In this document: positions 2-46,027 of the stretch, in pieces
How the letters are laid out: each line of letters begins with the position of its first letter
How positions within the stretch are numbered: position 1 is the first letter of the stretch
Assembly (NCBI RefSeq): GCF_004340785.1
Contig: NZ_SLXS01000003.1
Span: 405,689 to 469,688, forward strand
DNA length: 64,000 nucleotides
Reading direction: 5' to 3'
Origin: Tumebacillus sp. BK434
GTDB taxonomy: Bacteria; Bacillota; Bacilli; Tumebacillales; Tumebacillaceae
The notes under the pieces: generated by a model
Database searches by the model: none
Seen by the model: the letters and a program-made list of their open reading frames with translations, nothing else
Told to the model about the DNA's origin: nothing
Position numbers and translations under genes: made by a program

Positions 2-169
2 AAAACTATAAAGGAGCGCAACCTTGTGGTCGATCTGAAGATACTGATGGGTTCTTACCTCATGTTCGTCCTTATACGGCTAATTTTTCAACGTGGACCT
101 ATTGATGTACAAGCCTTGTGTAACAAACCCACCCACCCTATTTTACTAGAGCAGATGGGTTTGACCTAG
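2..169 (+). other. Unassigned open frame at the left edge
   Basis: An open frame of 55 codons runs in from the window edge and stops at TAG 167-169. It contains a short DLKIL stretch that faintly recalls the C-termini of sugar transferases, but the rest does not fit and the frame overlaps the peptide gene on the other strand by four bases. No start is visible. It may be the tail of a gene outside the window or a chance frame; I assign no function. Confidence 0.15.
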
Positions 170-297
170 AATGAAGTATTCGAGGAAGACATGGGTCCAA
201 TATCACGGTCACCAGCCAAGGCAGCGGACTGCGCCAGGAACGATCCTGCAGAAATCAGTAAAGCGACTGCAACAACAAATCCGATTAGTCGTTTCAT
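166..297 (-). CDS. Small exported peptide, candidate Phr-like signalling pheromone precursor
   Basis: A 43-residue peptide begins MKRLIGFVVAVALLISAG, a charged N-terminus followed by a hydrophobic export segment, and continues through ...AQSAALAG to a small polar tail ending SSSNTSF. The ALA|G step is a plausible signal peptidase site. Its ATG overlaps the TGA of the upstream RRNPP-type regulator (ATGA), and the regulator's last codons supply an AAGGAGGGG ribosome binding site. This layout, TPR regulator followed by an overlapping secreted peptide, is that of Rap-Phr, NprR-NprX and PlcR-PapR cassettes; a signalling role is inferred from it. A weak hairpin (124-131 pairing with 156-163) overlaps the 3' end. 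Too short for ordinary ORF calling. Confidence 0.65.
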   Translation of the reverse strand: MKRLIGFVVAVALLISAGSFLAQSAALAGDRDIGPMSSSNTSF

Positions 298-1616
298 AAT
301 ATCCCCTCCTTCCCGTCACTAAGTACTCGCAGAAGATACACACACCTCTTCTGAAGATCATACGCCTTACCTGTGTCCGCTAATGCTTCATATGCTTCGG
401 CAGCAATTTGCAAGGAATCAACTTGGTCAACCAATAAGCCAATTGTATCAAAAACTGACGCCGATTTTAAAGCGTAGTCAACGCACTTTTTAAAATCTTG
501 AAGCTTTAAATGATAACGGGCACACGCCTGAAAACATTCCGCACCCTCGTCAGTGCCATGAAGATTGTGAGTAATCACAAACTCCTCCGCCTGTTGTAGC
601 TCTCTTTCTGCCATCTCATAGTTCTCCAGATCAAGCTGAATGGCGGACTTTTTGGTAAGCACACGAACCAGATCCGAAATGCTGCCTTGCTCTTTAAAAG
701 CTACCGCACATTTTTCTAATTGACTCAACGCCCGTTGGGGATCTTCCAATGCAGTCACGGTAGAAGCCATGGTGTGCTGAATGATGTGATATTGGTGCAT
801 TAAGTTGAGTGCAAAAAAGATATTCATAGCGGTTGAGAACGAATCAACCGCACCGGCGTAATCTTTCAAGTTTTTATAGGAGATTCCTTGCGCATACACG
901 GTCATCGCCAGCTTATTCATATCCCCAATGCCTTGAAAATACTTATAAGTCCTTTCCAAGAAAAACAACGACTCTTGGGAATGACCTATTTTCCTCAAGG
1001 TGATCCCAACGTTGTACGAAATCTTTGCAGCTAGCAGATCAAACAATGTGAACCGGCTCGTATAGTCATACGCCTTACGGTAGTTGTAGTTGGCATGCGT
1101 ATAATTCTGCAAGCCGTAATACACATTCCCAATTGTATAACGGATCAGCGCCAACATCCGCGCATCGTCATAATTGACCGCTTCCAACTCATCCGAAAGG
1201 GGGATGAGCAATCCCAGTGTTTCTTCATACCGCTTTTGCTGATACCAGCATTCTCCAAGCTCCACGGTAAGTTCAATCGACTCTGCTTGTGATAAATCAT
1301 TTCTGGCTCTCAGTTGGTGCAAGAGCGGCTCAGCTTGATTAGGCTCCTTGATTTCAAGATACACCTTGACCAGTTTATGCTGGCATGCCATCGCCATCTG
1401 ACCAACATCATCTTCTACTAACTCGTGCAATGGAATTTGTAATTTACGGGCAATATGCCGCAATAATTCTACAGAAGCTGTATTCCTGTTGCGTTCGAGT
1501 TGACTAATCATCGATATTGTCACAAAACCGTCAGCGAGCTCACTTTGTGACATGCCCTTCTCCAGCCTAAGTCTCTTTATCTTTTCGCCAATTGTTTCGA
1601 CCGTAATGAGTTCCAC
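294..1616 (-). CDS. XRE-type HTH regulator with TPR repeats (RRNPP family)
   Basis: An N-terminal helix-turn-helix (IGEKIKRLR...SQSELA...ISMISQLERNR, within about the first 65 residues) precedes a long all-helical TPR-like region, giving about 440 residues. That is the architecture of RRNPP peptide-responsive regulators such as NprR and PlcR, in which the TPR part binds an imported peptide. I place the start at GTG 1616, 5 bases after AAAGGGGGG, rather than at the further upstream GTG 1640. The stop overlaps the ATG of the small peptide gene. A TATAAT at 1648-1653 is a plausible -10. It lies on the same strand as, and just downstream of, the cas operon but behind a terminator (1726-1751). Target genes cannot be read from the sequence. 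Confidence 0.8.
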   Translation of the reverse strand: MELITVETIGEKIKRLRLEKGMSQSELADGFVTISMISQLERNRNTASVELLRHIARKLQIPLHELVEDDVGQMAMACQHKLVKVYLEIKEPNQAEPLLHQLRARNDLSQAESIELTVELGECWYQQKRYEETLGLLIPLSDELEAVNYDDARMLALIRYTIGNVYYGLQNYTHANYNYRKAYDYTSRFTLFDLLAAKISYNVGITLRKIGHSQESLFFLERTYKYFQGIGDMNKLAMTVYAQGISYKNLKDYAGAVDSFSTAMNIFFALNLMHQYHIIQHTMASTVTALEDPQRALSQLEKCAVAFKEQGSISDLVRVLTKKSAIQLDLENYEMAERELQQAEEFVITHNLHGTDEGAECFQACARYHLKLQDFKKCVDYALKSASVFDTIGLLVDQVDSLQIAAEAYEALADTGKAYDLQKRCVYLLRVLSDGKEGIL

Positions 1617-1725
1617 GAAACGCCCCCCTTTATCAGTCACTAAAGTAATTATATCCCAATCACAATAAAAAGGACAGTTGAATTACAATGTTTTCTCCAA
1701 ATGAATAACATCTGTTAATAAGCAC

Positions 1726-1751
1726 AAAAAGGTACCGATATATCGGCACCT
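1726..1751 (-). terminator. Terminator of the cas operon
   Basis: A near-perfect palindrome, AGGTnCCGATATATCGGnACCT (1730-1751), sits directly after the cas5 stop and is followed on the minus strand by a T run. It separates the cas operon from the RRNPP regulator. Confidence 0.75.
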
Positions 1752-1757
1752 CTTTTA

Positions 1758-2441
1758 CTATCGGGAGTAAACTGTGTATCCACGACTTGAAGACTTTATC
1801 CGATAAGGAAGAAACACGATTCTCATCACTCGGTCGCGACCTAGCGTATTCTTAACGTCGCTATACGAGTTGATGCTTTCAAATGTTGCTGTAGCTCCCA
1901 TATCATCTAAGTATTGCACCATGACTACGGAACTGGTTGTGCTTCGTTCGCCTAAAACTACACTGAACGTATGCCGAAGCTCATCTTGCATTTCTTGTTC
2001 CACAACTTGAACAAAACTTCCCCGCTTGCCCAGGTAGTTGATATGAAGCAGAATGCTCTTCAAGGTAGACAACTTGTCTCCTTCTAGCCCATCCACACAG
2101 ATCGCAATACACAGATCTCCCTCAAACGAGACAAACTCCCGATAACCGACCGAAGAGATAAAGGGTAGCCCTTCTGGGTCCTTGGTTTTTGGCTCACTCA
2201 AAACTTTGATGAAACTGTTATTGACGACAGCATGTGCGGGAGGCTCAAAACGGATCTCCAGGTCGCGTACCCATGGAAAAATATCAGCTCCGTCCAGTCC
2301 CATGCGAAAGGATGCATCCAAAATTGCCATCTTCACGCTGTACATGCTCGGGACAAGATTCGTTTTTCCTCCAGAACTCGTCGCCATCGAGGATCGGAGG
2401 GAAAACAGTGCGGTATGACGATAGGTTGTCAGCAACCACAT
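1758..2441 (-). CDS. cas5: Type I CRISPR-associated protein Cas5
   Basis: Last gene of the cas operon, 227 residues. It begins MWLLTTYRHTALFSLRSS and fits a Cas5-type RAMP protein by size, by its position next to cas7 and by its N-terminal strand. In type I Cascade, Cas5 caps the 5' handle of the crRNA and anchors the large subunit. The start lies 6 bp after the cas7 stop, with AGGTGAG upstream inside the cas7 end. The call rests on operon position more than on a diagnostic motif; the subtype (I-A/I-B DevS-like) is tentative. Confidence 0.7.
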   Translation of the reverse strand: MWLLTTYRHTALFSLRSSMATSSGGKTNLVPSMYSVKMAILDASFRMGLDGADIFPWVRDLEIRFEPPAHAVVNNSFIKVLSEPKTKDPEGLPFISSVGYREFVSFEGDLCIAICVDGLEGDKLSTLKSILLHINYLGKRGSFVQVVEQEMQDELRHTFSVVLGERSTTSSVVMVQYLDDMGATATFESINSYSDVKNTLGRDRVMRIVFLPYRIKSSSRGYTVYSR

Positions 2442-2446
2442 TGGAG

Positions 2447-3391
2447 TTATCTCACCTGCTCAATCAAGTCAGCCATGATTTTCGTGAACTCAGATTGGGA
2501 GTGGAACACATGCGTTTGAATGGTGTTCGGATACAGACGATTCAGGTTGTTAGAAACACCCTCGATTTCTGCTTGGTATTTCGCATTCAACGGGCTAATC
2601 GTCGGCGCAGGCACGGTAGAGCCTGATACCGCTACTACGCCCTCAAAGTTCAAAATGTGCGGAAATTGAGTGCTGCGGTGAGCACCAAGCGGTTTGATGA
2701 AGGTCAGCATCACGCTCTCGAGCAATGCCTGAACGCGCTCTTGGCGCTCAGTTTCGGAAATCTCGTATTCACGTGTGAAATCGTTAAAACCCACTCGATT
2801 CAATTCTGCGTTCATCACGAGCGCGTATTTCCCTGAGCTCGCCGGCCGATAGAAAATATTTTGGCCCAAGTTGGCTCCACTGTCGTCACCAGACCCCTCT
2901 TTGCGATCTTTGTCAAACTTCACGTGAAAGTACGTTTCTGTACGAGTGACTTCCGGGAGGCCGATCAGCCAGCCAAATTCAACCGTCGATTTTCTCGGAG
3001 CGGAGTTTTTGTTCGCGGTGATCAAAACGCCTTCAAGATCGTCCATCGCACAGTGGTTCAGCAGTTTCCTCAAGACATCAGCTGTCGGAGCCTTACTTCC
3101 TAAAGATTCTATAAATTCGTGGTCAGCGTTGATACGGTTGGAGCTCAGCGTCTTGCATCCTTCACAGAGCGCCAAGTCTTTATCAACTGCCAGACCATGC
3201 AAATGCTCCGCTTGGATATGCTTCAACATATCGCCGGATACCGCGTTGACAACGGTCGGCTCCCCTTCGCCATCCAAAATGTGCACCATACGAGTCTGCA
3301 GGTGATTTCCTTCCGCACCTTCATTGTTCAGCGAGTGCATGTCCAAGGTCAAAAGACCGGAAATTGAAAAAGATTGGAACGGAATGCTCAT
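2447..3391 (-). CDS. cas7: Type I CRISPR-associated protein Cas7, DevR/Cst2 family
   Basis: A 314-residue backbone protein of Cascade that polymerises along the crRNA spacer. The N-terminus (ISGLLTLDMHSLNNEGAEGN) and the following VNAVSGDMLKH and LHGLA segments are typical of the DevR/Cst2 Cas7 group. The ATG shares one base with the cas8 stop (TAATG), so the two are translationally coupled. It is followed 5 bp later by cas5. Confidence 0.85.
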   Translation of the reverse strand: MSIPFQSFSISGLLTLDMHSLNNEGAEGNHLQTRMVHILDGEGEPTVVNAVSGDMLKHIQAEHLHGLAVDKDLALCEGCKTLSSNRINADHEFIESLGSKAPTADVLRKLLNHCAMDDLEGVLITANKNSAPRKSTVEFGWLIGLPEVTRTETYFHVKFDKDRKEGSGDDSGANLGQNIFYRPASSGKYALVMNAELNRVGFNDFTREYEISETERQERVQALLESVMLTFIKPLGAHRSTQFPHILNFEGVVAVSGSTVPAPTISPLNAKYQAEIEGVSNNLNRLYPNTIQTHVFHSQSEFTKIMADLIEQVR

Positions 3392-5106
3392 TAGATTTCC
3401 TCCTCAAGTGACTGCTCGTCATTTTGTTGTTTCGTATCGTCTTTTGCCGATGCAAAGGCAATCAGCAGCATTGCAATCGTCTCGGTCTGTTTCGGATACT
3501 TGTCAAAAAGGGAGAACAGCTCCTCCAACTCCTGAAGCGTGACATTGGCTCTGCGTCGTCCAGCCCCCTCTTTAATCCGTTCAGCCCGACGTGCATTTTC
3601 CGCGTTGTATTCGTTGACGAACCTTGCCACACGCTCAATCAACTGCTCACGGAATTTCGCCTTCTGCTTGATTTCTTGAAAGAGTCCATAGTGGATGTCA
3701 AAACTTTGATTGCCTCTGGACTTATGAAACTGCTCTGTCACAGTAGCCTTGCGCATCGCTTCGGCTACACTTTTGAATCCAGCATTTCTGATAACTTCTG
3801 CGATCGGCAACTTGCTGTTTTCTTGAGATTTCAAAAACAACGCCTCCAAATCCGAATAGGTAAACGTCCGAGCTGGTTTGCCCTTTTCTCGTTTTTTCAT
3901 CAGTAAAATACCATTGCCGCCAAGAAACTGTAGAAATGCACGCCAATCACTTGCCGACAAAAAATCTCGATACGCCCCAAGCAGGTCCGCTTCTTCGCTT
4001 TTGTCCTCGTCCCAAAGTTGCAACACTTTGCGATGGTCATCGGTGATGCGTTTCCAAAGATCGTAATCAGCCTGTGTCTTCACAGTGAACCAGTCAGGTA
4101 CACCAATGCTGGAAATGTTTGTGACAGCTCGCCCGGAACCGAGTGACTTGAAATAGGTAGTCTGGATCGAGGAGATCAGATCTCTTGGACTCTTGTTCAA
4201 AACCAGTCTTAAACGTACTCCGCTCTCTTTTTCTGCATGTTGGAGGAGGAAACCGACTTGGTCGAGGACTGCAAAAATGTCTGACTTGCGGGAAGTCCAA
4301 GCAAGTGTCCCTTTTTCCTTATTCATGGCTTGATATGTCCGAAACGTTATTTCTTTAGGAACAGGTACCGACATTTTGATATCCTTGTTCATGGAATAAC
4401 CCATGAGTGCAATATCGCTCGCAATGTAACGTAGCCACTCTTCAAACCAATCCAAAAAATCATTTGGCAACGACTTTCTGGATGTGCTCAGTGCCTTTGT
4501 TTGATTGATTCCTTTCCCAGCAATCGGATTGAAGACTTGCAGCGGAGAAGTGCTAGGTGCAAAGGGCGTCGTACCCTGAAGATCAGTTCCTGTTCCCAAC
4601 GCCATTAATCGTTGGATCAAAGTCGTGCGAAATGCTTCCGGGTCTGCATTTTCAATCTCGCGATATAGCTTGTTCCTTGCACCAAATCCTTGAAGAAGGT
4701 TGATCTTCTGGAAAGTAGGAAACCGTGGTTCTGGACCCCGCGGTCGAGTTTCATCATCACTCAAAATCCCAGACTTTGCTTTGGCATTTTTCTTCTTGTA
4801 CTCCCGCTCTTCATCGGCAAGTCTTTTTTGCTCCGCATAAAGAATGGCATTTGGTGGTATGTCACCATCCTCATCGCTCAAATGAGCATAGCGAAACTGC
4901 GGACGTGCCTGCAATTTCTGATAGTCCAGATTGGACAGATCGACCGGGTCTGATGTTATCAGAAATGAATCGCTTTTTTCCGAGACGAAAACCTCTTGCT
5001 CCCCGTCCAACAAAAAGTCGATCATTTTCGCTAGCCCAACCGCAGCTAACGTGTCAGCATACGTGCCGGTTCGCTTATACAGAGTCCACTGTGATACGAG
5101 CTCCAT
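3391..5106 (-). CDS. cas8: Type I CRISPR large subunit, Cas8-like
   Basis: A protein of about 571 residues between cas3 and cas7, the slot of the Cascade large subunit that recognises the PAM and recruits Cas3. It begins MELVSQWTLYKRTGTYADTL; a charged linker (about residues 95-125) and a helical C-terminus ending in acidic residues are visible. I use ATG 5106 with AAAGGAGG 7 bases upstream; the longer frame to 5154 lacks a site. It overlaps the cas3 end by 32 bp. Large subunits diverge strongly, so the call is by synteny and size, and I cannot fix the subtype: a DevR-type Cas7 suggests I-A/I-B. Confidence 0.7.
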   Translation of the reverse strand: MELVSQWTLYKRTGTYADTLAAVGLAKMIDFLLDGEQEVFVSEKSDSFLITSDPVDLSNLDYQKLQARPQFRYAHLSDEDGDIPPNAILYAEQKRLADEEREYKKKNAKAKSGILSDDETRPRGPEPRFPTFQKINLLQGFGARNKLYREIENADPEAFRTTLIQRLMALGTGTDLQGTTPFAPSTSPLQVFNPIAGKGINQTKALSTSRKSLPNDFLDWFEEWLRYIASDIALMGYSMNKDIKMSVPVPKEITFRTYQAMNKEKGTLAWTSRKSDIFAVLDQVGFLLQHAEKESGVRLRLVLNKSPRDLISSIQTTYFKSLGSGRAVTNISSIGVPDWFTVKTQADYDLWKRITDDHRKVLQLWDEDKSEEADLLGAYRDFLSASDWRAFLQFLGGNGILLMKKREKGKPARTFTYSDLEALFLKSQENSKLPIAEVIRNAGFKSVAEAMRKATVTEQFHKSRGNQSFDIHYGLFQEIKQKAKFREQLIERVARFVNEYNAENARRAERIKEGAGRRRANVTLQELEELFSLFDKYPKQTETIAMLLIAFASAKDDTKQQNDEQSLEEEI

Positions 5107-7480
5107 TCTGATCCTCCTTTCCCTCGTGCAACAGACGCTGGGACAATTGGTCATTAAGACGCACTCTTCGCACCAAGTACCAGTACAACGCGAGAACGTC
5201 AGGTTTGATTAACCTGTTTTTGTAGCTGCTCAGATCTTCAGCTTCATGATTCAGTTGCACCCCTCCATCAAATAACCCAGAAAGACTTTTCCCTACTATT
5301 TCTTCCGCCCGCTTGGCAATTGAGAATTCTTTATAATTCTCACTAAATGCGTTGTGGTGTCTCATGATTGCGAGAACCATTGCAAAGTATGCGTGCTCCT
5401 GTGCTTGACCATCAAACCTCAAGGCAGTCTCATCGAAAATGGGAAGGCTCATCAGCGCCCCTTCGACTGCATGATTCCCTCGCTCATACATTTTCTTTTT
5501 CGATTCCTTCCGGTCCGCTGGATTGAGACCGTCGTAATCGGTGTGTGCCAGCAGGTCCGATTCGTCTTTGTTCCTATACTGAACTTGCCATTTCCTAACA
5601 GCAATCTGATACTTTTTTGTGAGTTTGCCCACATCATGCAAAGCACCGACCAATTCCGCAACGTAAGCGATTAAAAGCTGACCATCCTGTCCCCGAAGCT
5701 GCTTACTCAACTTGTCGTTCGCGACTCGAAACATATGCAATTGCTCTTCATGTTGAAAGAGGGAGCGAATTCGCTCTACGTGCTCCAAGTACGTCTCTCG
5801 CACATAACGAAAAGGTTGATTGGCCCTCGCGTGATCTGTTTTTTGCTCTTTAGACATGAGGCACTTACGATTACCGGAAAAAGGAGGCAGCAACAAACCA
5901 ACATCCTTTTGATAGTTCACAATCTGCGGAGAGAGACAGACCAGTGAACATCCCCTAATGTCACGTTCTGATCGAATTGGTGCCCAGGTGACTTCCAGCC
6001 CCTTAGATTGGCTCTTCTCAAAGATCGGATACCAGCCGATATCGTATTCTTTAACCTTCTCCAGCTCCTGCTTGATCAACTTGTAGAGCCTGAAGGTTGA
6101 AATCGAAACACGCTCCGGTTTGTTTTCCAATCGTAAACTCTCAGGTGCGTTATGTACCAATACACTCACATTGTCTATGAGACGTACAAGCTCTTGGACA
6201 TTACCCTCCCCAGAAACCAAAGACTGTTCAATCACATCAGCTCTGGCAGGCAAATCAAGAAAGGCTTCGTTTAGTTCCTTAACATCCAAGGTTCCGTGTA
6301 CGTATTCAACGATGGACTGCTCAAACTCAGGAGTCATCTGACTGGGGACGTTGCTGATTAGAAATTCCTCAGTTAAGCACAACCGCTCAACATCGTATGG
6401 AGATGGTAATCGCTCCCCCTCCGCATCTACCAACGAGAAAACATGTATTTTCCCGATTTCTTCTTCATAGCGCGCGCAACGTCCAGCACGCTGCAAAAGT
6501 GCGTTGGCCGGGCAAAGATCCGTTATCAGAACATCAGCCGAGATGTCTAGACCAACTTCTACAACCTGAGTCGCCACCAAGATAGCAGGGGCTTTCGCTT
6601 TTTTATAAAATCTCTCATGAACCCATTTCTCCGTGTCCTGTCGATCTTTCTCAAACATCCTTGAGTGAAGGCATCTGACAGGAAGGTGCATGCCCTCATC
6701 AACAAGGCGAGATTGCAGTTCTAGGTAGAGCTGCTGCGCCCTGTCAACTGTATTGATGACAACAAGAGTTTTATCCCCGCGACTCTTTAGGATCGCATCA
6801 ACACTTAGGGGCTCCTCATGCCACTGAAGACTTCGTGTCCTATTGAGTTGATTCATGTTACTCAGCCGTATTGGTGTCGTGTTCAAATGCAGGGAGATGC
6901 GATCAACGATCTCGGATGGGGCTGTTGCAGTCATCACAAAAAATTGGGTGAAGTGCTTCAACCGTTTCATCATCTCCAAAAACGTTAGCAAAGCTTCCTG
7001 ATAAGACAAGAGATGGAATTCATCGATGATCACTTGCGCACCAATGAGTGCACCCGGCGGTATATTTGACGCCGGGGCAGAAGTTCCGAATGCAAGACCT
7101 ACATAGGCACTCAAGAGTTGATCGATCGTCGTAAAAACGATGTCCCCTTGAAAATAGGGGTCATCAGGTTGGTTCCCCATTTGAAGAGTGACGTCCAACC
7201 CCAATTTTTCTTTAACGATCTCTTCTGTCGATTGATGTAGCGAGGAGGCGAGAGCACGGAGCGGCAAGGCATAGATTACGCGATCTGCAACCGGCTTTCC
7301 GATTTTCTTTGAATACAGGAACGGCGCCAAAGCAGCGTAGGTCTTGCCTGCGCCTGTTGGCGCAACAAGCACCATGTTTTTGTCCAACAGGACTTGCTCG
7401 GCTACTTGTACTTGGTATGGATATGGTTTATTGCCAAACGTTTCTTGAAAAAATTCCTGAAATCCAATGTCCATTCTCAT
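5075..7480 (-). CDS. cas3: Cas3 helicase-nuclease with C-terminal HD domain
   Basis: 801 residues. The helicase comes first: Walker A APTGAGKT (40-47), Walker B DEFH (153-156), TATAP (184-188), and motif VI QRAGRCAR (330-337). The HD nuclease domain is at the C-terminus, with EHVER, LHDVGK (about 614-619), RGNHAVEGA and RHHNA supplying the metal-binding histidines and aspartate. Cas3 unwinds and degrades the target strand after Cascade binding. Most Cas3 proteins have HD first, so the order here is a subtype marker. Translation is coupled to cas6 by an ATGA overlap. All catalytic motifs look intact. Confidence 0.92.
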   Translation of the reverse strand: MRMDIGFQEFFQETFGNKPYPYQVQVAEQVLLDKNMVLVAPTGAGKTYAALAPFLYSKKIGKPVADRVIYALPLRALASSLHQSTEEIVKEKLGLDVTLQMGNQPDDPYFQGDIVFTTIDQLLSAYVGLAFGTSAPASNIPPGALIGAQVIIDEFHLLSYQEALLTFLEMMKRLKHFTQFFVMTATAPSEIVDRISLHLNTTPIRLSNMNQLNRTRSLQWHEEPLSVDAILKSRGDKTLVVINTVDRAQQLYLELQSRLVDEGMHLPVRCLHSRMFEKDRQDTEKWVHERFYKKAKAPAILVATQVVEVGLDISADVLITDLCPANALLQRAGRCARYEEEIGKIHVFSLVDAEGERLPSPYDVERLCLTEEFLISNVPSQMTPEFEQSIVEYVHGTLDVKELNEAFLDLPARADVIEQSLVSGEGNVQELVRLIDNVSVLVHNAPESLRLENKPERVSISTFRLYKLIKQELEKVKEYDIGWYPIFEKSQSKGLEVTWAPIRSERDIRGCSLVCLSPQIVNYQKDVGLLLPPFSGNRKCLMSKEQKTDHARANQPFRYVRETYLEHVERIRSLFQHEEQLHMFRVANDKLSKQLRGQDGQLLIAYVAELVGALHDVGKLTKKYQIAVRKWQVQYRNKDESDLLAHTDYDGLNPADRKESKKKMYERGNHAVEGALMSLPIFDETALRFDGQAQEHAYFAMVLAIMRHHNAFSENYKEFSIAKRAEEIVGKSLSGLFDGGVQLNHEAEDLSSYKNRLIKPDVLALYWYLVRRVRLNDQLSQRLLHEGKEDQNGARITVDSV

Positions 7481-8442
7481 GACCCAATTCGAATTCTGCC
7501 AAGATCAAAGACCGTATTTTTGCCAATGTGAGTCAACTCTGCAACTTGTAGCCAAGGCAAAAACTCTTTCCAGTCGCCTTCATACTGCGCCCATCCCATA
7601 ATGCCGCCGAGCTTCATTTTGGCATCTTGCCGTGCGGAAAACCGGTCATAATCGACCCATTTAGTCTCCTGTCGAACGAGTTTAATCTGTTCTGCTTTTT
7701 GCAATAATTCTTGGAAGTTTTCGGAACTGGTATCAAGTCCGTGGTGGTAGTGAAGCAGCCCGGTTATGCGGCGCAGTACATTGCGGAAGATGATATGAAA
7801 TTGCGGGTCACTCGTATAGCGGCCTTGCCATTTCATTCGAAGTGGAGTCTCAAAGAAAAGTATTAGACGAGAGTAGTCTGAGTTGGCGCTATCAAGATCG
7901 GTGATTACGTCTGCACCAGTAGAGATTATTGGATTGTGTGTTTGTTCTCCTCCCTCCATGTAAACCATTCTGTCCATTTCCCGCCTCACGCCTTCCGATG
8001 CCACGTGATTCAGGCGGTAGGGTTTTCGGCCCTTGCCAATACCTGAGTTGCCTAACTCCCGAAAAGTCGAAACGAACAATGGAGCGTAGTCGATCCCCTT
8101 GCCGAACAAGCGCAAGCGCAGTGTCAGTACTTCCCCAGGCTCGTAATAGGTCTGCCGATCCACAGGTACTTCCAGCAAGTAAGGACGCGGAATCTGCTCG
8201 TATCGACCCATGAATCCCCCTGTTTCTTCTTCTGGAGCTGTCTCAAAAATATAGCCGTATGCGCATACAGAACTCGCTTGGCATTTTACGCAAGCTTCAT
8301 CAGCTCTCATACAAGCAAGCTTCTTGAAAACATGCCCGAATCCACCACGAAAGGTCGATGCCTTCCATGGAGGCAATTCGACCCCTTGTTTGCCAGCCTG
8401 CAGTGTAAAGCGGTACGTTGCGAACTGTAAGTTTTTAAGCAT
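7477..8442 (-). CDS. cas6: Cas6 pre-crRNA processing endoribonuclease
   Basis: First gene of the cas operon, about 321 residues. The central Cys-rich segment, with CVKCQASSVCAYGYIFE, matches the C..C....CPYG..FE signature of the PF10040-type Cas6 group, and the glycine-rich GNSGIGKGRK loop is typical of RAMP proteins. Cas6 cuts the repeat in the array transcript and leaves an 8-nt 5' handle. I choose ATG 8442, 5 bases after GGAGG, over the TTG at 8460. A promoter-like element shared with the CRISPR leaders lies at 8471-8487. Confidence 0.85.
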   Translation of the reverse strand: MLKNLQFATYRFTLQAGKQGVELPPWKASTFRGGFGHVFKKLACMRADEACVKCQASSVCAYGYIFETAPEEETGGFMGRYEQIPRPYLLEVPVDRQTYYEPGEVLTLRLRLFGKGIDYAPLFVSTFRELGNSGIGKGRKPYRLNHVASEGVRREMDRMVYMEGGEQTHNPIISTGADVITDLDSANSDYSRLILFFETPLRMKWQGRYTSDPQFHIIFRNVLRRITGLLHYHHGLDTSSENFQELLQKAEQIKLVRQETKWVDYDRFSARQDAKMKLGGIMGWAQYEGDWKEFLPWLQVAELTHIGKNTVFDLGRIRIGS

Positions 8443-8470
8443 TGTGTCCTCCGTCCCCAATAGTGGGTCT

Positions 8471-8487
8471 CAGTTTTTGAATACAAT
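8471..8487 (-). promoter_or_regulatory. Promoter-like element of the cas operon shared with CRISPR leaders
   Basis: On the + strand this reads CAGTTTTTGAATACAAT. It matches leader 1 at 9894-9910 in 16 of 17 positions and leader 2 at 11702-11718 in about 14. On the transcribed strand it contains TTG-TATTCA, an extended -10-like element, about 30 bases upstream of the cas6 start. The leaders have a recognisable -35 17 bp further upstream; here the -35 is poor. Confidence 0.45.
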
Positions 8488-8614: not shown

Positions 8615-9339
8615 TTAGCGAACCACACGCGCGAAGCTCATGTCTACATCCTGCGAATCGGCTTGGTCGAGGACAGCTTCGATAAACGGCGCTTTGAGCT
8701 GCAAGGTGAAGATGAAGCTTTTCAAATACTCGATGAAAACGGAATTCTGCTCTTGGAAACTCTCGAAAGGTTGCGACATGCTTTTCTCGAGGTGTTCAGA
8801 TTTAGCAAAAAAGTCGACAGTATTTTTGCTGAGCTCATTCAACCAGTGGAACAATTCAGTCCATGTCGAATGAAGTTCTGCATCTTCAAGTTGGGCATGT
8901 GTTTCGATGATGCGTTTTAAGATGCCAAGCAGCCGATCAAAGACCGCGCGGTCTAGTGCGCCACGGTCGGTGTGTTCTGTGTTTTCCCATCCTAGTAAGG
9001 TGCGCTCGATTGCGACTGTCAGCGGTGTCAGCTGGTAGTGGAAGTTTTTTGTTTGATTTCGGCAATGCTTTTGAAGTTTCGATTGACTTGCCGCTCGATC
9101 AAGTTGCCCCACTTAACAAGCATCCGGAGATCCTGTTCGACTTCTTCTTTGGTGTACTTTATCTCCGGGTACGCACTTTTCACGTGCTCGTAAATCTCTC
9201 TTTTAAACACCTGATAGCGGTAGATCTCGTGCTGTTCGAACAAGTACCTGATGATCGGCCGGTATCGGTCCGAGTTGTCCTGCGCGAGATATTTCGCTTC
9301 CGTGATCTGATCCACTAACGCCCTCACGGCATGCACCAA
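8615..9339 (-). pseudogene. Remnant of a DUF2397/TIGR02677 (Wadjet JetA-like) gene, frameshifted and truncated
   Basis: Two consecutive minus-strand frames form the N-terminal half of a DUF2397 protein: 9339-9028 carries EAKYLAQDNSDRYRPIIRYL and LRMLVKWGNLIERQ; after a frame change inside an A6 run (T6 at 9045-9050 on the + strand) the second frame continues KNFHYQLTPLTVAIERTLL. The reading then ends at TAA 8615, far short of the family's usual length of nearly 500 residues, and nothing homologous follows before cas6. DUF2397 proteins are the JetA-type component of four-gene SMC-like anti-plasmid systems. No partner genes (DUF2398, SbcC-like, DUF2399) are in the window, so this is a relic. 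Confidence 0.65.
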
Positions 9340-9561: not shown

Positions 9562-9745
9562 TATTTGTTCCACTATAGCTCGGGGGTCACGATGTTAGTA
9601 GAGAATACGGGCGTTTTCCTTTTGCAGATCGTCGATTTCAGTCCCCTACAACTTGGGTCTCACGATGTTACTTTATTACCAAGCCGCTAAACAAGACGAT
9701 GGATTGTGCTTTCAGTCCCCTTCAACACGGGTCTCACGATGTTAC
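9562..9745 (-). CRISPR. CRISPR array 1: three repeats, two spacers, decaying
   Basis: Repeats lie at 9562-9598, 9635-9671 and 9709-9745, with spacers of 36 and 37 bp. The repeat nearest the leader differs from the array-2 consensus at two positions, the middle one at about five, and the distal one keeps only its 3' half and ends GATGTTAG instead of GATGTTAC. In crRNA orientation (minus strand) the repeat starts GTAACATCGTGAGACC and ends GGGGACTGAAAG, giving an ACTGAAAG handle. The mutation gradient away from the leader supports minus-strand transcription. Confidence 0.9.
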
Positions 9746-9950
9746 CGACCTTGATGGCCGGACAAAAATACTGTTCTGGCGCGGGTTCCGCAAACTTTGC
9801 AACGGGCTTTAGATGCTACATTTTTCGAGGATTCATTTTCTGTAGAAAAAGTGGCTCGATCCTCGAAACTCTAAGTCATATCCTTATGTTCCCCAGTTTT
9901 AGAATACAATATCCGCTCTTAGGATACAATGAATGGTTAGCCTATAATAT
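9746..9950 (-). promoter_or_regulatory. Leader and promoter of CRISPR array 1
   Basis: The sequence right of array 1 is homologous to that right of array 2. A 48-nt block (9821-9868) is identical in both and contains an inverted repeat, TTCGAGGAT (9824-9832) with ATCCTCGAA (9859-9867). Further upstream, in minus orientation, lies TTGTAT (9924-9929), 17 bp, then TATTCT (9901-9906): a plausible promoter about 155 bp from the first repeat, spaced exactly as in leader 2. The 260 bp between array 1 and the kinase gene are accounted for by this leader and that gene's upstream region. Confidence 0.7.
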
Positions 9951-11146: not shown

Positions 11147-11553
11147 GTCTCAGTCCCATTCAACTCGGGTCTCACGATGTTACTGGACGACAACCCGAAG
11201 CTCCCTTTCAAGGAATTCGCCTTTCAGTCCCCTTCTACTCGGGTCTCACGATGTTACAGCGCAATGATGTAATCCGTCATTACGAAGTGCGAATCTTTCA
11301 GTCCCCTTCTACTCGGGTCTCACGATGTTACTCAGGAGGGGAACGCAGATGCATGTAGAAATCATTCACTTTCAGTCCCCTTCTACTCGGGTCTCACGAT
11401 GTTACGACCGAATGCGGCAGCGCGTCTGTGCCGCCCAAGTCTCTTTCAGTCCCCTTCTACTCGGGTCTCACGATGTTACGATCTCCAATTGCCACAAGAC
11501 CGCGAAAAGCTCGCGACTTTCAGTCCCCTTCTACTCGGGTCTCACGATGTTAC
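11147..11553 (-). CRISPR. CRISPR array 2: six repeats, five spacers
   Basis: Repeats of 37 bp start at 11147, 11221, 11295, 11369, 11443 and 11517, a strict 74-bp period with 37-bp spacers. On the + strand the repeat starts CTTTCAGTCCCC and ends CTCACGATGTTAC. Five copies are identical; the one at 11147 has mismatches near its start and in the middle, as expected for the leader-distal repeat. The crRNA strand is the minus strand, whose repeat ends GACTGAAAG. Spacers show no match to each other or to anything I noticed in the window. Confidence 0.97.
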
Positions 11554-43278: not shown

Positions 43279-44577
43279 TTACAATGCAATCCCGCGGTTG
43301 GACAGGTGGCGGTTGATCAGTTGATCGAGCCGTTCGAGCTGGGCAAATGCTTCTGTAGAATTTTCCCCTTCGTTGAGGCGCTTGCATAAGGTGAGTACCG
43401 ATTCCCGGAGTTCGGAAAGCATGGTGTACTTCTCGAAGATCTGGATGGCGTTGCGCAGGTGCTTCTCCCCTTGCTCGGTGTGGCCGGACGCAAAGGACAG
43501 GTCGGCGCGGAGACGTTGCAGTTTCCCGGCGGCAGGGCTTTGCTGAGACAGGTAAGCGCTTGCTTCTTCGATCAGTTCAAACGCTTTATCGAGTTCGTTG
43601 TGGTCAATCAGGATCGATGCAGCATCTGTCAACGTTTCGCCTGCGCGGGCTTGGTCGGGCAGGAAGAGGTACTGGGTGGCGATCTCACGCAGGCTTTCGA
43701 CCGACTGCTGCCAGTTGGCTTCGCTCTGTTGCAGGAGGATCAGCTTTTGCCGCCATGACAGGTATTGGGTTTGATCTTTCAACTCGTTGAAGACAGAGAT
43801 GGACAGCGTCGCGTAATGGCTCGCTTTTTCGAACTGTTGCTGGCGCTGGTAGGCATGGGCGAGCTCGTAGAAAGTCTTCGCCTTTTCACTGAGCGTGGTG
43901 AGGCGTTCGCCGATCACGATCAGCTCTTCGTAGTAGTTGGACGCAAGCTGCACTTCCCCGGTGTGGGTGTGGATGGTAGCGAGCTGTGACAGGATGTCTT
44001 TGTGCAGCAGCGGGTCGAGGATGCCGTGCGTTTTGTATTTTTCCAGCGCTTCTTGCGCGTGGAATTTCGCGACCTGGTACTCTTTCTTTTGGACAGAAAG
44101 ATCTGCGAGGTGCAAGAGTACGGTGATCAGTGTTTCCGTGTCCTACCGAAATTTTGCGTCATCTAAGATGCTGAGCAAAAGCGACGAGGCGCGGTCGAGC
44201 TCTCCGGTCTGGACGTAGCATTTGGCCAGTTCGAGCTTCAGCTTGGCCGACGGGATGCTGGCCGCCTTGACCTCGGGGATGCTTTCGAGCAAAGGGATCG
44301 CAGCGTGGTACTCCCCCGCCTGCACCATGCATAGCGCCATTTTATAGAAGCTGATATGCTCCAGATTGAGATCGACGTCTTGCAAAAGCTGCTCCAGCGG
44401 AACGCTAAGGCGGTCGGCGATGCCGTAGAGGATTTTGTAAGAGGGGCGTGCCCGGTCACTTTCAATCTGGGAGATCATCGACGGGGTGCAGAGGCCTTGG
44501 GCAAGGTCGATTTGTGTGATACCGATTCGTAAGCGATGATTGCGGATTCGTTGTCCAAGCGATATGCTGGCTGACAT
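43279..44577 (-). pseudogene. RRNPP-type HTH/TPR regulator interrupted by an in-frame TAG
   Basis: The first 144 codons (44577-44143) encode a helix-turn-helix domain (LGQRIRNHRLRIGITQIDLA, SMISQIESDRARP) and the first TPR helices. They end at TAG 44143-44145; the same frame then continues without interruption to 43279 with TPR-like helices. The whole would be 432 residues, the length of the intact homologue at 294-1616. A single base change (for example CAG to TAG) explains it. Unless the stop is read through or is a sequencing error, the product is a short DNA-binding fragment. Confidence 0.8.
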
Positions 44578-44749: not shown

Positions 44750-44878
44750 TTAGGTACTCTTAATGATACTAGGCCTCGGCGGAAGAAGTTCCGCATTTTC
44801 GGATGTACGATCTATCATAGTCAAAGAAAATGCAAGAGCTACTGCTACAATGCTACCCCACAGAATGAACCTTTTCAT
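44750..44878 (-). CDS. Small exported peptide, candidate pheromone precursor (second cassette)
   Basis: A 42-residue peptide starts MKRFILWGSIVAVALAFSLT, a basic N-terminus with a hydrophobic core, and ends with a polar, proline-containing tail (LLPPRPSIIKST). The ATG directly follows the regulator's TAA (TAAATG), with GAAGAGGAGG upstream inside the regulator's last codons. It shares the MKR plus hydrophobic design with the peptide at 166-297 but no obvious sequence in the tail, as expected for pheromones of different specificity. Its own terminator follows. A signalling role is inferred from this layout. Confidence 0.65.
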   Translation of the reverse strand: MKRFILWGSIVAVALAFSLTMIDRTSENAELLPPRPSIIKST

Positions 44879-46027
44879 TTACAGATCCTCCTCTTCTATC
44901 AAATCCATGTACGAATCACCACGAATGCTCTCCGAGAGTTCATGATACTTCATGAATAATTCGGCTTCCCCAGCACGCTTGTAGTACTCCATCAAGTACT
45001 TGCAGCCCAAATCACGGACTTTACTTCCATATGCACAATTGGAAACGACCTTCTTTGCATGCTCCGGGGTATGATCAATTCGCCCAAGCAAGAGCATGAG
45101 CTTGCCTTCTAGTTCCAATAAGCCGCTTGTACCTGCGATCTCCAAAGCAGTGGTAATCTGTTGTTTCGCATGTTCAAGGATTCCTAGTTTGATCAGTGTC
45201 TTACTATAATCCTTGACCGTTACCCAATAGGAATAGTCGTACTTTTCTAGCTTAGGAAGCGCCAGTTCGAAATATTCCTTTGATTTCTCATAATTAGAAG
45301 TTACAAACTCGATAAACCCTACGTTTCGTTCCGCAATCCCAATGTTTATGCGATCTCCCGTTTGGATGTAATACTCCAAGGATTGATACAATCTCTGTTT
45401 GGTAGCCTCAATATTCCCTTTTTCATATTCAATCATTGCGTAGGAATAACAGAGGGCACCTGAATACTCCGGTTGCAGATCGAAGATCGGCTCCAGTTCG
45501 GAAATGATGTTTGAAAGATGGGTGTACTCTTTTCTTGCAGCAAATGAAATCATGAGATTTTTTGTCACGTTAAATAAAAATTCTGTCTCTTTATAACGCT
45601 CTTTGATCTCAGTTGCTTCATGATACGCCAGTAACCACGAGGCATGGGCTTCTTCATATTTTTGTAGATCGTAATATGCATTGCCTAAGTGGTTAAGCGC
45701 CTCACATCTTTCAGTAACACCAATCGCAACATTTGCGATGCGCTGAGCTAGTTCGAGCGCACGATGTTTGTCGCCAAGCTTATCTAAAAGCGTCGACAAC
45801 TCTTTCACTTCGAAGTATGTATCCTCTTGCTTGATCCGCTCGACTGGCACTTTCAAAAAGGAGGCAATCTGGTTGAGCTCGTGCGGCAGGATCACGCGTT
45901 CACCGGTCAGCATCAAGCGCACCGTTTCCCGACTGATCCCCATTTTATTTGCAATCGCCTGTTGAGAGAACGCTTTGCCCTTCTCTTTCATGATCTCGGC
46001 GATCCGACGTCCTAACGGAAGCCCCAT
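44879..46027 (-). CDS. HTH/TPR regulator, RRNPP-like
   Basis: 382 residues. The N-terminal helix-turn-helix (SQQAIANKMGISRETVRLML, about 20-40) is followed by TPR-like helices throughout (for example EALNHLGNAYYDLQKYEEAH). Such regulators bind a short imported peptide in the TPR groove. It is intact, unlike its neighbour at 43279-44577, and is directly followed by a small exported-peptide gene. The start follows GGAGGATAAATAA. Confidence 0.8.
   Translation of the reverse strand: MGLPLGRRIAEIMKEKGKAFSQQAIANKMGISRETVRLMLTGERVILPHELNQIASFLKVPVERIKQEDTYFEVKELSTLLDKLGDKHRALELAQRIANVAIGVTERCEALNHLGNAYYDLQKYEEAHASWLLAYHEATEIKERYKETEFLFNVTKNLMISFAARKEYTHLSNIISELEPIFDLQPEYSGALCYSYAMIEYEKGNIEATKQRLYQSLEYYIQTGDRINIGIAERNVGFIEFVTSNYEKSKEYFELALPKLEKYDYSYWVTVKDYSKTLIKLGILEHAKQQITTALEIAGTSGLLELEGKLMLLLGRIDHTPEHAKKVVSNCAYGSKVRDLGCKYLMEYYKRAGEAELFMKYHELSESIRGDSYMDLIEEEDL

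Follow-up and report, generated by a model that had tools for sequence, protein, structure and literature searches.

In Rap-Phr quorum-sensing systems the peptide gene lies downstream of the receptor gene and overlaps it, and Rap itself begins with a helical bundle for binding a response regulator and has no helix-turn-helix (HTH) domain. NprX, the partner of the receptor NprR, is a small exported precursor encoded directly downstream of NprR, and its peptide core reads SKPDIVG. Receptors of the wider RRNPPA family are described in the RRNPP_detector study as about 285-473 amino acids (aa) long, with a tetratricopeptide repeat (TPR) sensor and usually an N-terminal HTH domain, and their precursors as 10-100 aa long, encoded at -60 to 400 nucleotides (nt) from the receptor and provided with an N-terminal export signal (PMC10075063). 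The subject of this work is a gene pair of similar layout in the soil bacterium Tumebacillus sp. BK434, found at the left end of a 64,000-nt stretch (contig NZ_SLXS01000003.1, positions 405,689 to 469,688; hereafter the window), behind the cas5 gene of a type I-A CRISPR-Cas operon. With confidence evenly divided for and against, we propose that this pair is a self-contained RRNPPA-type peptide quorum-sensing module which controls its own expression and that of the adjoining I-A operon according to cell density.

The receptor and its adjoining peptide gene

A sequence-only reading of this DNA had described a 43-codon exported-type gene overlapping the stop codon of an RRNPP-type regulator, directly behind cas5 on the same strand and separated from it by a terminator, and each of these points held. 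Both open reading frames (ORFs) are present on the minus strand, where the peptide ATG overlaps the regulator stop as ATGA (-4 nt); cas5 is the preceding gene, 141 nt upstream of the regulator, and a terminator-like hairpin stands between the two (Table 1). Regulator and peptide gene each have a strong Shine-Dalgarno sequence (AAGGGGGG at 1630-1623 and GGAGGGG at 309-303), and an alternative in-frame GTG of the regulator at 1640 is without one. Pfam assigns HTH_3 (7.9e-11) and TPR_12 (5.7e-11) domains to the regulator, and a Pfam-type profile search with the 43-aa peptide returned zero family matches. Export was judged by reading, as an N-terminal K/R followed by a hydrophobic stretch; the peptide begins MKR, continues with a hydrophobic run and SAALA and ends in the tail GDRDIGPMSSSNTSF, the ALA ahead of the tail being, by eye, a likely signal-peptidase site.

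An AlphaFold model built on a 31-sequence alignment (predicted local distance difference test score 91.2) shows the HTH domain followed by 18 helices, which form nine TPR-like pairs in a superhelix. Comparison by VIA-align gave Z scores of 30.0 for Rap phi3T, 29.1 for NprR apo, 27.5 for NprR-NprX, 22.9 for AimR and 20.7 for PlcR, with the Rap and NprR alignments (Z 27.5-30) covering 335-349 residues; the eukaryotic LGN, an unrelated TPR protein, reached 27.6. In a sequence profile search PlcR was among the bacterial matches (8.9e-20 over residues 6-275). With its 440 aa, its two domains and this predicted fold the receptor has the features described for RRNPPA receptors, as has the 43-aa precursor with its spacing of -4 nt and its basic and hydrophobic N-terminus. 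Eight matches to SBP_bac_5, the oligopeptide-binding-protein family, record the presence of such proteins in the same genome.

We followed the pair through the family genomes (L and G numbers denote the loci and genomes of the analysis, L001 being the window's own cassette). Receptor relatives at E<=1e-60 occupy 30 places in 6 of the 7 family genomes, and a small exported-type ORF lies downstream of all 26 whose receptor is intact. We looked for close relatives that have kept the regulator but lost the peptide frame and found none among these 26, which upholds the earlier designation of the HTH-TPR receptor and its small gene as an RRNPP-type cassette. The receptor frame is broken in the other four (L038, L069, L072 and L075); the peptide ORF persists in L038 and L072, in L075 such an ORF lies 266 nt past the premature stop, and L069 has only an unconvincing small ORF after an internal stop. 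The BK434 genome holds 29 HTH-TPR places (30 in the original list, in which L029 and L030 are one gene), nine with an abutting exported-type ORF, one (L008) with such an ORF at 283 nt and 19 without an accepted one.

The background was taken from 343 gene ends (genes of >=200 aa) in the window and the regions around such cassettes, 36 of which have an abutting small exported-type ORF. HTH-TPR regulators precede 32 of these ORFs (28 flagged by script and four by reading, two of the latter being AloR/AimR-like), and the remaining four stand behind a single 1025-aa ORF and a transposase-like gene present in three copies. The pairing of regulator and peptide exceeds chance. Furthermore, amino-acid changes per site (pN) are fewer than silent ones (pS) in both orthologous peptide genes compared, with pS 0.47 vs pN 0.19 in one and pS 0.19 vs pN 0.05 in the other.

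Among named records, receptor relatives above 33% identity over most of their length are all from T. avium, and the nearest relatives of the window receptor, L031 and L032, are 59 and 58% identical to it. Class-wide, matches at E<=1e-30 occurred in 9 of 398 genomes, all of the own order; the absence outside that order is a first look only, because four candidates were scored per genome in a sample of 398. To judge from these comparisons, the pair is a member of a subfamily that has expanded within the Tumebacillus lineage. A phage or plasmid origin was considered and found no support: a cutoff of E<=1e-5 gave 0 matches among 50,697 phage records, the nine matches to viral contigs were weak and each covered at most 99 of the 440 residues, and the only plasmid hits were three Priestia TPR/HTH regulators of 21-23% identity. 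A second HTH-TPR regulator with an SLGQ-type N-terminus stands head to head beside many of the cassettes (L077-L079, L085, L090-L094, L101 and L103); no peptide gene was seen for these regulators, which are possibly partners or antagonists of the cassette.

Peptide cores and a probable exchange of the sensor half

The peptide tails carry cores of DIGPM, PIGPL or PGPGPM type, at times in tandem, as in L002, L033, L009 (FIHDAEPL four times) and L120 (DPGP[LM] three times), and the window tail RDIGPM aligns with PPIGPL of L031 and L032. A regular expression for the core, composed after the tails had been viewed, matched 26 of 30 tails, compared with a mean of 7.0 and a maximum of 17 in 2000 shuffles. 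In a partial Mantel test on 30 pairs, peptide-tail distance tracked receptor residues 200-430 of the TPR domain given the HTH (partial 0.29, 1 of 1000 permutations) and did not track the HTH given the TPR (0.03, 323 of 1000), as expected if the TPR domain reads the tail. Core count and test both exclude L008, L038, L069, L072, L075 and the more distant L115-L126. The RRNPPA pattern of a precursor that is kept with its receptor (26/26) and co-varies with the sensor domain (30 pairs) is therefore present in this family.

Two T. avium receptors, L031 and L033, are 95, 98, 86 and 77% identical in successive tenths from the N-terminus and 25-59% thereafter; residues 1-150 have a pN of 0.035 and a silent divergence (dS) of 0.48, and residues 200-430 a saturated pS of 0.79 and an amino-acid divergence (dN) of 0.49. 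L002, from the BK434 genome, has the same neighbours as L031 and L032, namely a MazG-like gene, a PDC-M26A gene and an HTH-TPR gene that is divergent and has no peptide gene, and its sensor half and YEPGIPM pheromone are those of L033. The simplest reading of L002, L031 and L033 is that recombination appears to have swapped sensor and pheromone together, the DNA-binding half being kept.

Defence systems beside the cassettes

A midpoint-rooted receptor tree, for which L008 was included and L038, L069, L072, L075 and L115-L126 were again left out, places the window copy in a clade of 14 receptors (clade A, support 93/90). A defence neighbour was defined as a PADLOC match at E<=1e-20 within 5 kb, limits that were set after the pattern had been seen, and by this definition 8 of the 12 independent clade-A cassettes (9/14 uncollapsed) have a defence system beside them. 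In this count L036, L039, L040 and L041, close paralogues at separate loci, were scored separately, and L031 and L039 were not scored positive, their defence genes lying beyond 5 kb. The clade-A scan lists 25 of 122 families; we assigned the second methyltransferase to L041, and two PDC-M26A hits to L002 and L032, from bulk hits. Random loci of the same three genomes had a defence system in 1 of 19 cases (Wadjet, its proteins being taken as one locus), after 20 had been drawn, one dropped for overlap with the L033 cassette and one 2459-aa gene left out. The Fisher value for clade A vs random loci is 0.0005, and with only established system types, which leaves 6 of the 12 clade-A cassettes, it is 0.007. 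Additionally, five of the seven directly adjoining clade-A cassettes lie downstream, on the same strand (binomial 0.013, post hoc). As a statistical association, clade-A cassettes are preferentially lodged beside antiphage defence systems. The defence label itself shows no strong clustering on the tree (8 changes, with 40/500 shuffles as low).

A search with cas6 (PF10040) found seven loci in 4 of the 7 family genomes, and in three of them the cassette is the next gene downstream on the same strand, with gaps behind the last gene of the cas locus of 141 nt (own I-A), 170 nt (T. avium III-D) and 81 nt (T. avium I-D). Under a naive model of uniform placement about 0.002 adjacencies are expected in seven loci, and three or more have a probability of 5e-10. 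L036 and L040 are closely related sisters, from which L001 stands apart, so that at least two separate associations with CRISPR loci are likely.

The three genes beside L037 form a convergent operon (L085:2774-7612; 573, 724 and 324 aa) with no matches in PADLOC and none above cutoff in Pfam; if the association is borne out, these genes are candidates for a so far unknown defence system. In the window, the best PADLOC models for cas8 and cas5 are those of type I-A, and two overlapping fragments of JetA (DUF2397, Wadjet) lie directly upstream of cas6 (8615-9339, minus strand), so that the CRISPR locus has a decayed defence gene as its immediate neighbour. A second pair, of another class, occupies 44750-46027 of the minus strand; its 382-aa HTH-TPR protein is AloR/AimR-like by eye, and a 42-aa exported-type peptide, at 0 nt from the receptor, ends in AELLPPRPSIIKST. 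A broken HTH-TPR paralogue (43279-44577, minus strand) is in pieces of 144 and 278 aa in different frames, and no adjoining exported-type peptide ORF was seen there. In G004 an AloR/AimR-like receptor (L098:12759-13943) with the tandem peptide AEYVPIVP x2 lies 3.6 kb beyond the I-A operon, which is without a cassette of the kind found in the window.

Table 1. Window features (positions counted from the first letter of the window) and genes neighbouring the clade-A cassettes.
Feature	Position	Strand	Basis
43-aa exported-type pheromone precursor gene, ATG 297, stop at 166	166..297	-	ORF, overlap, Shine-Dalgarno
Receptor-regulator gene, 440 aa, GTG start, TGA 296-294	294..1616	-	Pfam, AlphaFold model
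Shine-Dalgarno of regulator	1621..1630	-	sequence
TATAAT, likely -10 of regulator promoter	1648..1653	-	by eye; not among the picks of a two-hexamer scan
ATTGTAATTCAACTG, gapped likeness to cas6-promoter/leader motif	1675..1689	-	weak
Terminator-like hairpin between cas5 and regulator, 13 pairs	1726..1755	-	sequence
cas5 (Cas5a)	1758..2441	-	PADLOC 6.5e-74
cas7 (DevR/Csa2)	2447..3391	-	Pfam 1.4e-65, PADLOC
cas8a	3391..5154	-	PADLOC 6.4e-56
cas3, helicase then HD	5075..7480	-	Pfam, NCBIfam, PADLOC
cas6	7477..8460	-	Pfam PF10040 1.5e-19, PADLOC
cas6 upstream motif ATTGTATTCAAAAACTG	8471..8487	-	by reading
CRISPR array, short and in part degenerate, with its leader side facing 9750-9950	9569..9745	-	repeat units, orientation by eye
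Second CRISPR array	11150..11553	-	repeat units by eye
Neighbour of L001 (window): CRISPR I-A			PADLOC
Neighbour of L040: CRISPR I-D (Cas10d, Cas11d, Cas7d, Cas5d, Cas3d)			PADLOC
Neighbour of L036: CRISPR III-D-like operon ending in Csx1-type CARF-HEPN gene			PADLOC
Neighbour of L003: DpdA/DpdC-like protein (Dpd)			PADLOC
Neighbour of L004: type IV restriction enzyme; NucC-like nuclease further off			PADLOC
Neighbour of L035: candidate system PDC-M33ABC and HNH nuclease			PADLOC
Neighbour of L041: type II restriction enzyme and two methyltransferases			PADLOC, among the matches listed
Neighbour of L002, L031, L032 (one syntenic group): candidate system PDC-M26A			PADLOC, among the matches listed
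Neighbour of L033: transposase-like genes			
Neighbour of L034: nonribosomal peptide synthetase (NRPS)-like cluster			by eye
Neighbour of L037: three unknown genes			
Neighbour of L039: AAA ATPase at more than 5 kb, with PtuA as its best PADLOC match			PADLOC

Interpretation and comparison with known systems

In the proposed module the small gene would give a precursor that is exported through Sec, proteolysis would release a short peptide around the DIGPM core, and an oligopeptide permease would bring this peptide back into the cell, where it would bind the concave face of the receptor's C-terminal TPR superhelix, alter DNA binding by the N-terminal HTH domain and so set both the module's own expression and the adjoining type I-A operon by cell density. 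Export, cleavage, import and receptor binding are taken over from the RRNPPA family, and the pairing, the shared core, the co-variation and the NprR/Rap-like fold argue for such a way of working. Control of cas by the cassette is inferred from genome context; it is unproven, yet strengthened by the sister cassettes that adjoin other CRISPR and restriction systems. The placement beside defence genes suggests that these bacteria tune their immunity by mutual signalling. A broader proposal, which we hold tentatively and at not quite an even chance, is that of a peptide quorum-sensing family dedicated to antiphage immunity, in which the copies have their own pheromone codes, each sets by density the expression of its adjoining defence system (CRISPR I-A, I-D, III-D, Dpd or restriction), and sensor-plus-pheromone halves are exchanged among copies by recombination. 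If this were true, a peptide cassette that recurs next to defence systems of unrelated chemistry would amount to a portable controller of immunity, density-dependent defence would have arisen separately in Gram-positive bacteria, and short synthetic peptides could serve as switches for CRISPR and restriction in the Tumebacillus lineage. Receptor-pheromone pairs whose halves appear to have been swapped also make up a natural series for the mapping of specificity.

Several observations weigh against the proposed module and its role in defence. The Fisher values are optimistic because the pattern had been seen before testing, and when the generic hits of the random loci (four mad3-type ATPases, a cysteine desulfurase and a subtilase) are all allowed as defence (up to 7/19) the value of 0.11 is not significant. 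The other 12 Tumebacillus cassettes (set B, 11 independent; L038 left out, and a JetA3 hit belonging to an unassigned locus) have defence neighbours in only 2 of 11 independent cases (Fisher clade A vs B 0.026), one of the two at the L045/L005 site, where AriA/AriB and LmuA are found. The cassettes of G004 and G006 are in neither set, and L074 and L071 among them have defence-type neighbours (PDC-M26A and a type III methyltransferase). Four of the seven cas6 loci are without a cassette (G001 III-D, a G001 I-A locus that is decayed by eye, G004 I-A and G004 type III), as is the G013 cas operon, and the G001 III-D operon is homologous to that of T. avium (71% over 6 kb). We rejected an ancestral tie of the cassette to type I-A cas on account of the G004 and G013 operons, and no remnant of a regulator was detected by tblastn with 32 regulator sequences (E<=1e-3) in the cassette-less cas loci L127, L128, L129, L098 and L114. 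Eight promoter comparisons demonstrated no common operator of cassette and defence promoters. Terminator-like hairpins also precede the regulators of L003 (after the DpdA-like gene) and L036, both by eye, and together with that of L001 they favour separate transcription. Finally, plain Foldseek ranking put eukaryotic LGN/Pins TPR chains first, PlcR 21st and Rap 23rd; as eukaryotic TPR proteins score nearly as high as the known receptors, fold alone is not diagnostic.

The gapped resemblance of 1675-1689 to the cas promoter motif, claimed in the sequence-only reading, is real but weak, about 1-2% of shuffles equalling it; with two versions of the motif it was reached in 6/500 and 11/500 shuffles and in 7/300 and 0/300 window segments, in a post hoc comparison at a site without a syntenic orthologue. 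In the promoter comparisons a match between the L041 and restriction enzyme promoters was rejected because the two stretches overlap. Only the comparison of III-D cas10 with L036 stood out (1/40, then 3/200 shuffles), and it is not claimed, as the cognate score of 12.6 is nearly equalled by non-cognate regulators (12.4, 11.8 and 11.8). An inverted repeat close to TTACATCAATTCTTGATGTAA, about 100 nt before the receptor start, is common to L005, L038, L044, L045 and L046, and is by eye a candidate operator of that subclade.

The main rival to control of the adjoining defence genes is co-residence in defence islands, in which a genuine RRNPPA cassette would regulate only itself or distant targets (sporulation, secreted products) and have come to lie beside cas through shared variable hot spots. 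We regard this as plausible, though distinctly short of an even chance. The cassette evidence itself is compatible with it, as are the terminator ahead of the regulator, the cas loci without a cassette and the transposase-like genes near L033, L039 and L041. At L005 and L045 the receptors are 91% identical and the flanks similar (L091, L090:1-8000), and beyond a recombinase-like gene the defence cargo differs, with LmuA at L005 in the BK434 genome and AriA and AriB at L045 in T. avium; this site fits both regulation and defence islands. Against this rival stand the shared side, strand and spacing at three of the seven cas6 loci, the downstream, same-strand position of five of the seven directly adjoining clade-A cassettes, and the single defence locus in 19 random loci.

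An improbable alternative is that the pair regulates a siderophore cluster, staphyloferrin B (sbn-type)-like by eye, which lies immediately left of the window on the plus strand (L076:2007-10561) and runs towards the pair, as proposed for RRNPP systems inside biosynthetic clusters. The RRNPP_detector study reports 196 such clusters with an RRNPP pair, 10 of them in Alicyclobacillaceae (PMC10075063), and the sister cassette L034 adjoins its NRPS-like cluster; the convergent orientation, however, means that no promoter region is shared, and siderophore genes were not recognised by eye beside the listed sister cassettes. It is very improbable that the small ORF arose by chance or encodes a membrane microprotein whose translation is coupled to that of an ordinary HTH-TPR regulator, for although the peptide is known here from its gene alone and its export was judged by reading, the constant pairing, the shared and tandem cores, the co-variation with the sensor half, the excess of pS over pN and the rarity of background ORFs behind other genes all argue against it.

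Of the systems described, NprR-NprX of the Bacillus cereus group has the same HTH and nine-TPR architecture, here in a predicted model (Z 27.5-29.1 over 340-345 residues), with a Tumebacillus peptide core that is PGP[LM]-like instead of SKPDIVG; the receptor tree held zero NprR sequences. Rap is the best structural match, yet the window receptor starts with an HTH domain, which sets it apart from Rap. The distinctness from Rap-Phr and NprR that had been suggested for the pair stands at the level of sequence and not at that of the fold. AloR-AloP of Paenibacillus has likewise expanded greatly within the genome, with small ORFs at the receptor's 3' end (PMC7425212); AloR has been placed in a clan with degenerate TPRs (PMC12700828), and the window model instead fits NprR and Rap best.

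The claim that the cassette is undescribed is only partly safe. The RRNPP_detector study scanned complete Firmicutes genomes and reports 21 new candidate subfamilies, pairs linked to biosynthetic clusters, and candidates of the same signature in Alicyclobacillaceae, to which NCBI assigns Tumebacillus; neither Tumebacillus nor CRISPR is named in its main text, and its tables may overlap with the pairs described here (PMC10075063). No paper with both Tumebacillus and RRNPP was found among the open-licence papers searched, and the titles and abstract openings covered there showed nothing on peptide quorum sensing of defence islands. The quorum-sensing RNPP domain (PF18768) is among the families near class II lanthipeptide clusters, a bacteriocin link in a study that, in the part consulted, mentions neither Tumebacillus nor RRNPP (PMC12715929). 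Density-dependent control of CRISPR-Cas has been reviewed for LuxR/LuxI-type systems, Serratia SmaI/SmaR and Pseudomonas aeruginosa (PMC10013973); these are Gram-negative and use diffusible signals of acyl-homoserine-lactone type, with no peptide cassette adjoining the defence locus. Compared with all of these, the Tumebacillus cassette is a lineage-specific RRNPPA variant and not a new principle, and what is new is its placement beside defence systems.

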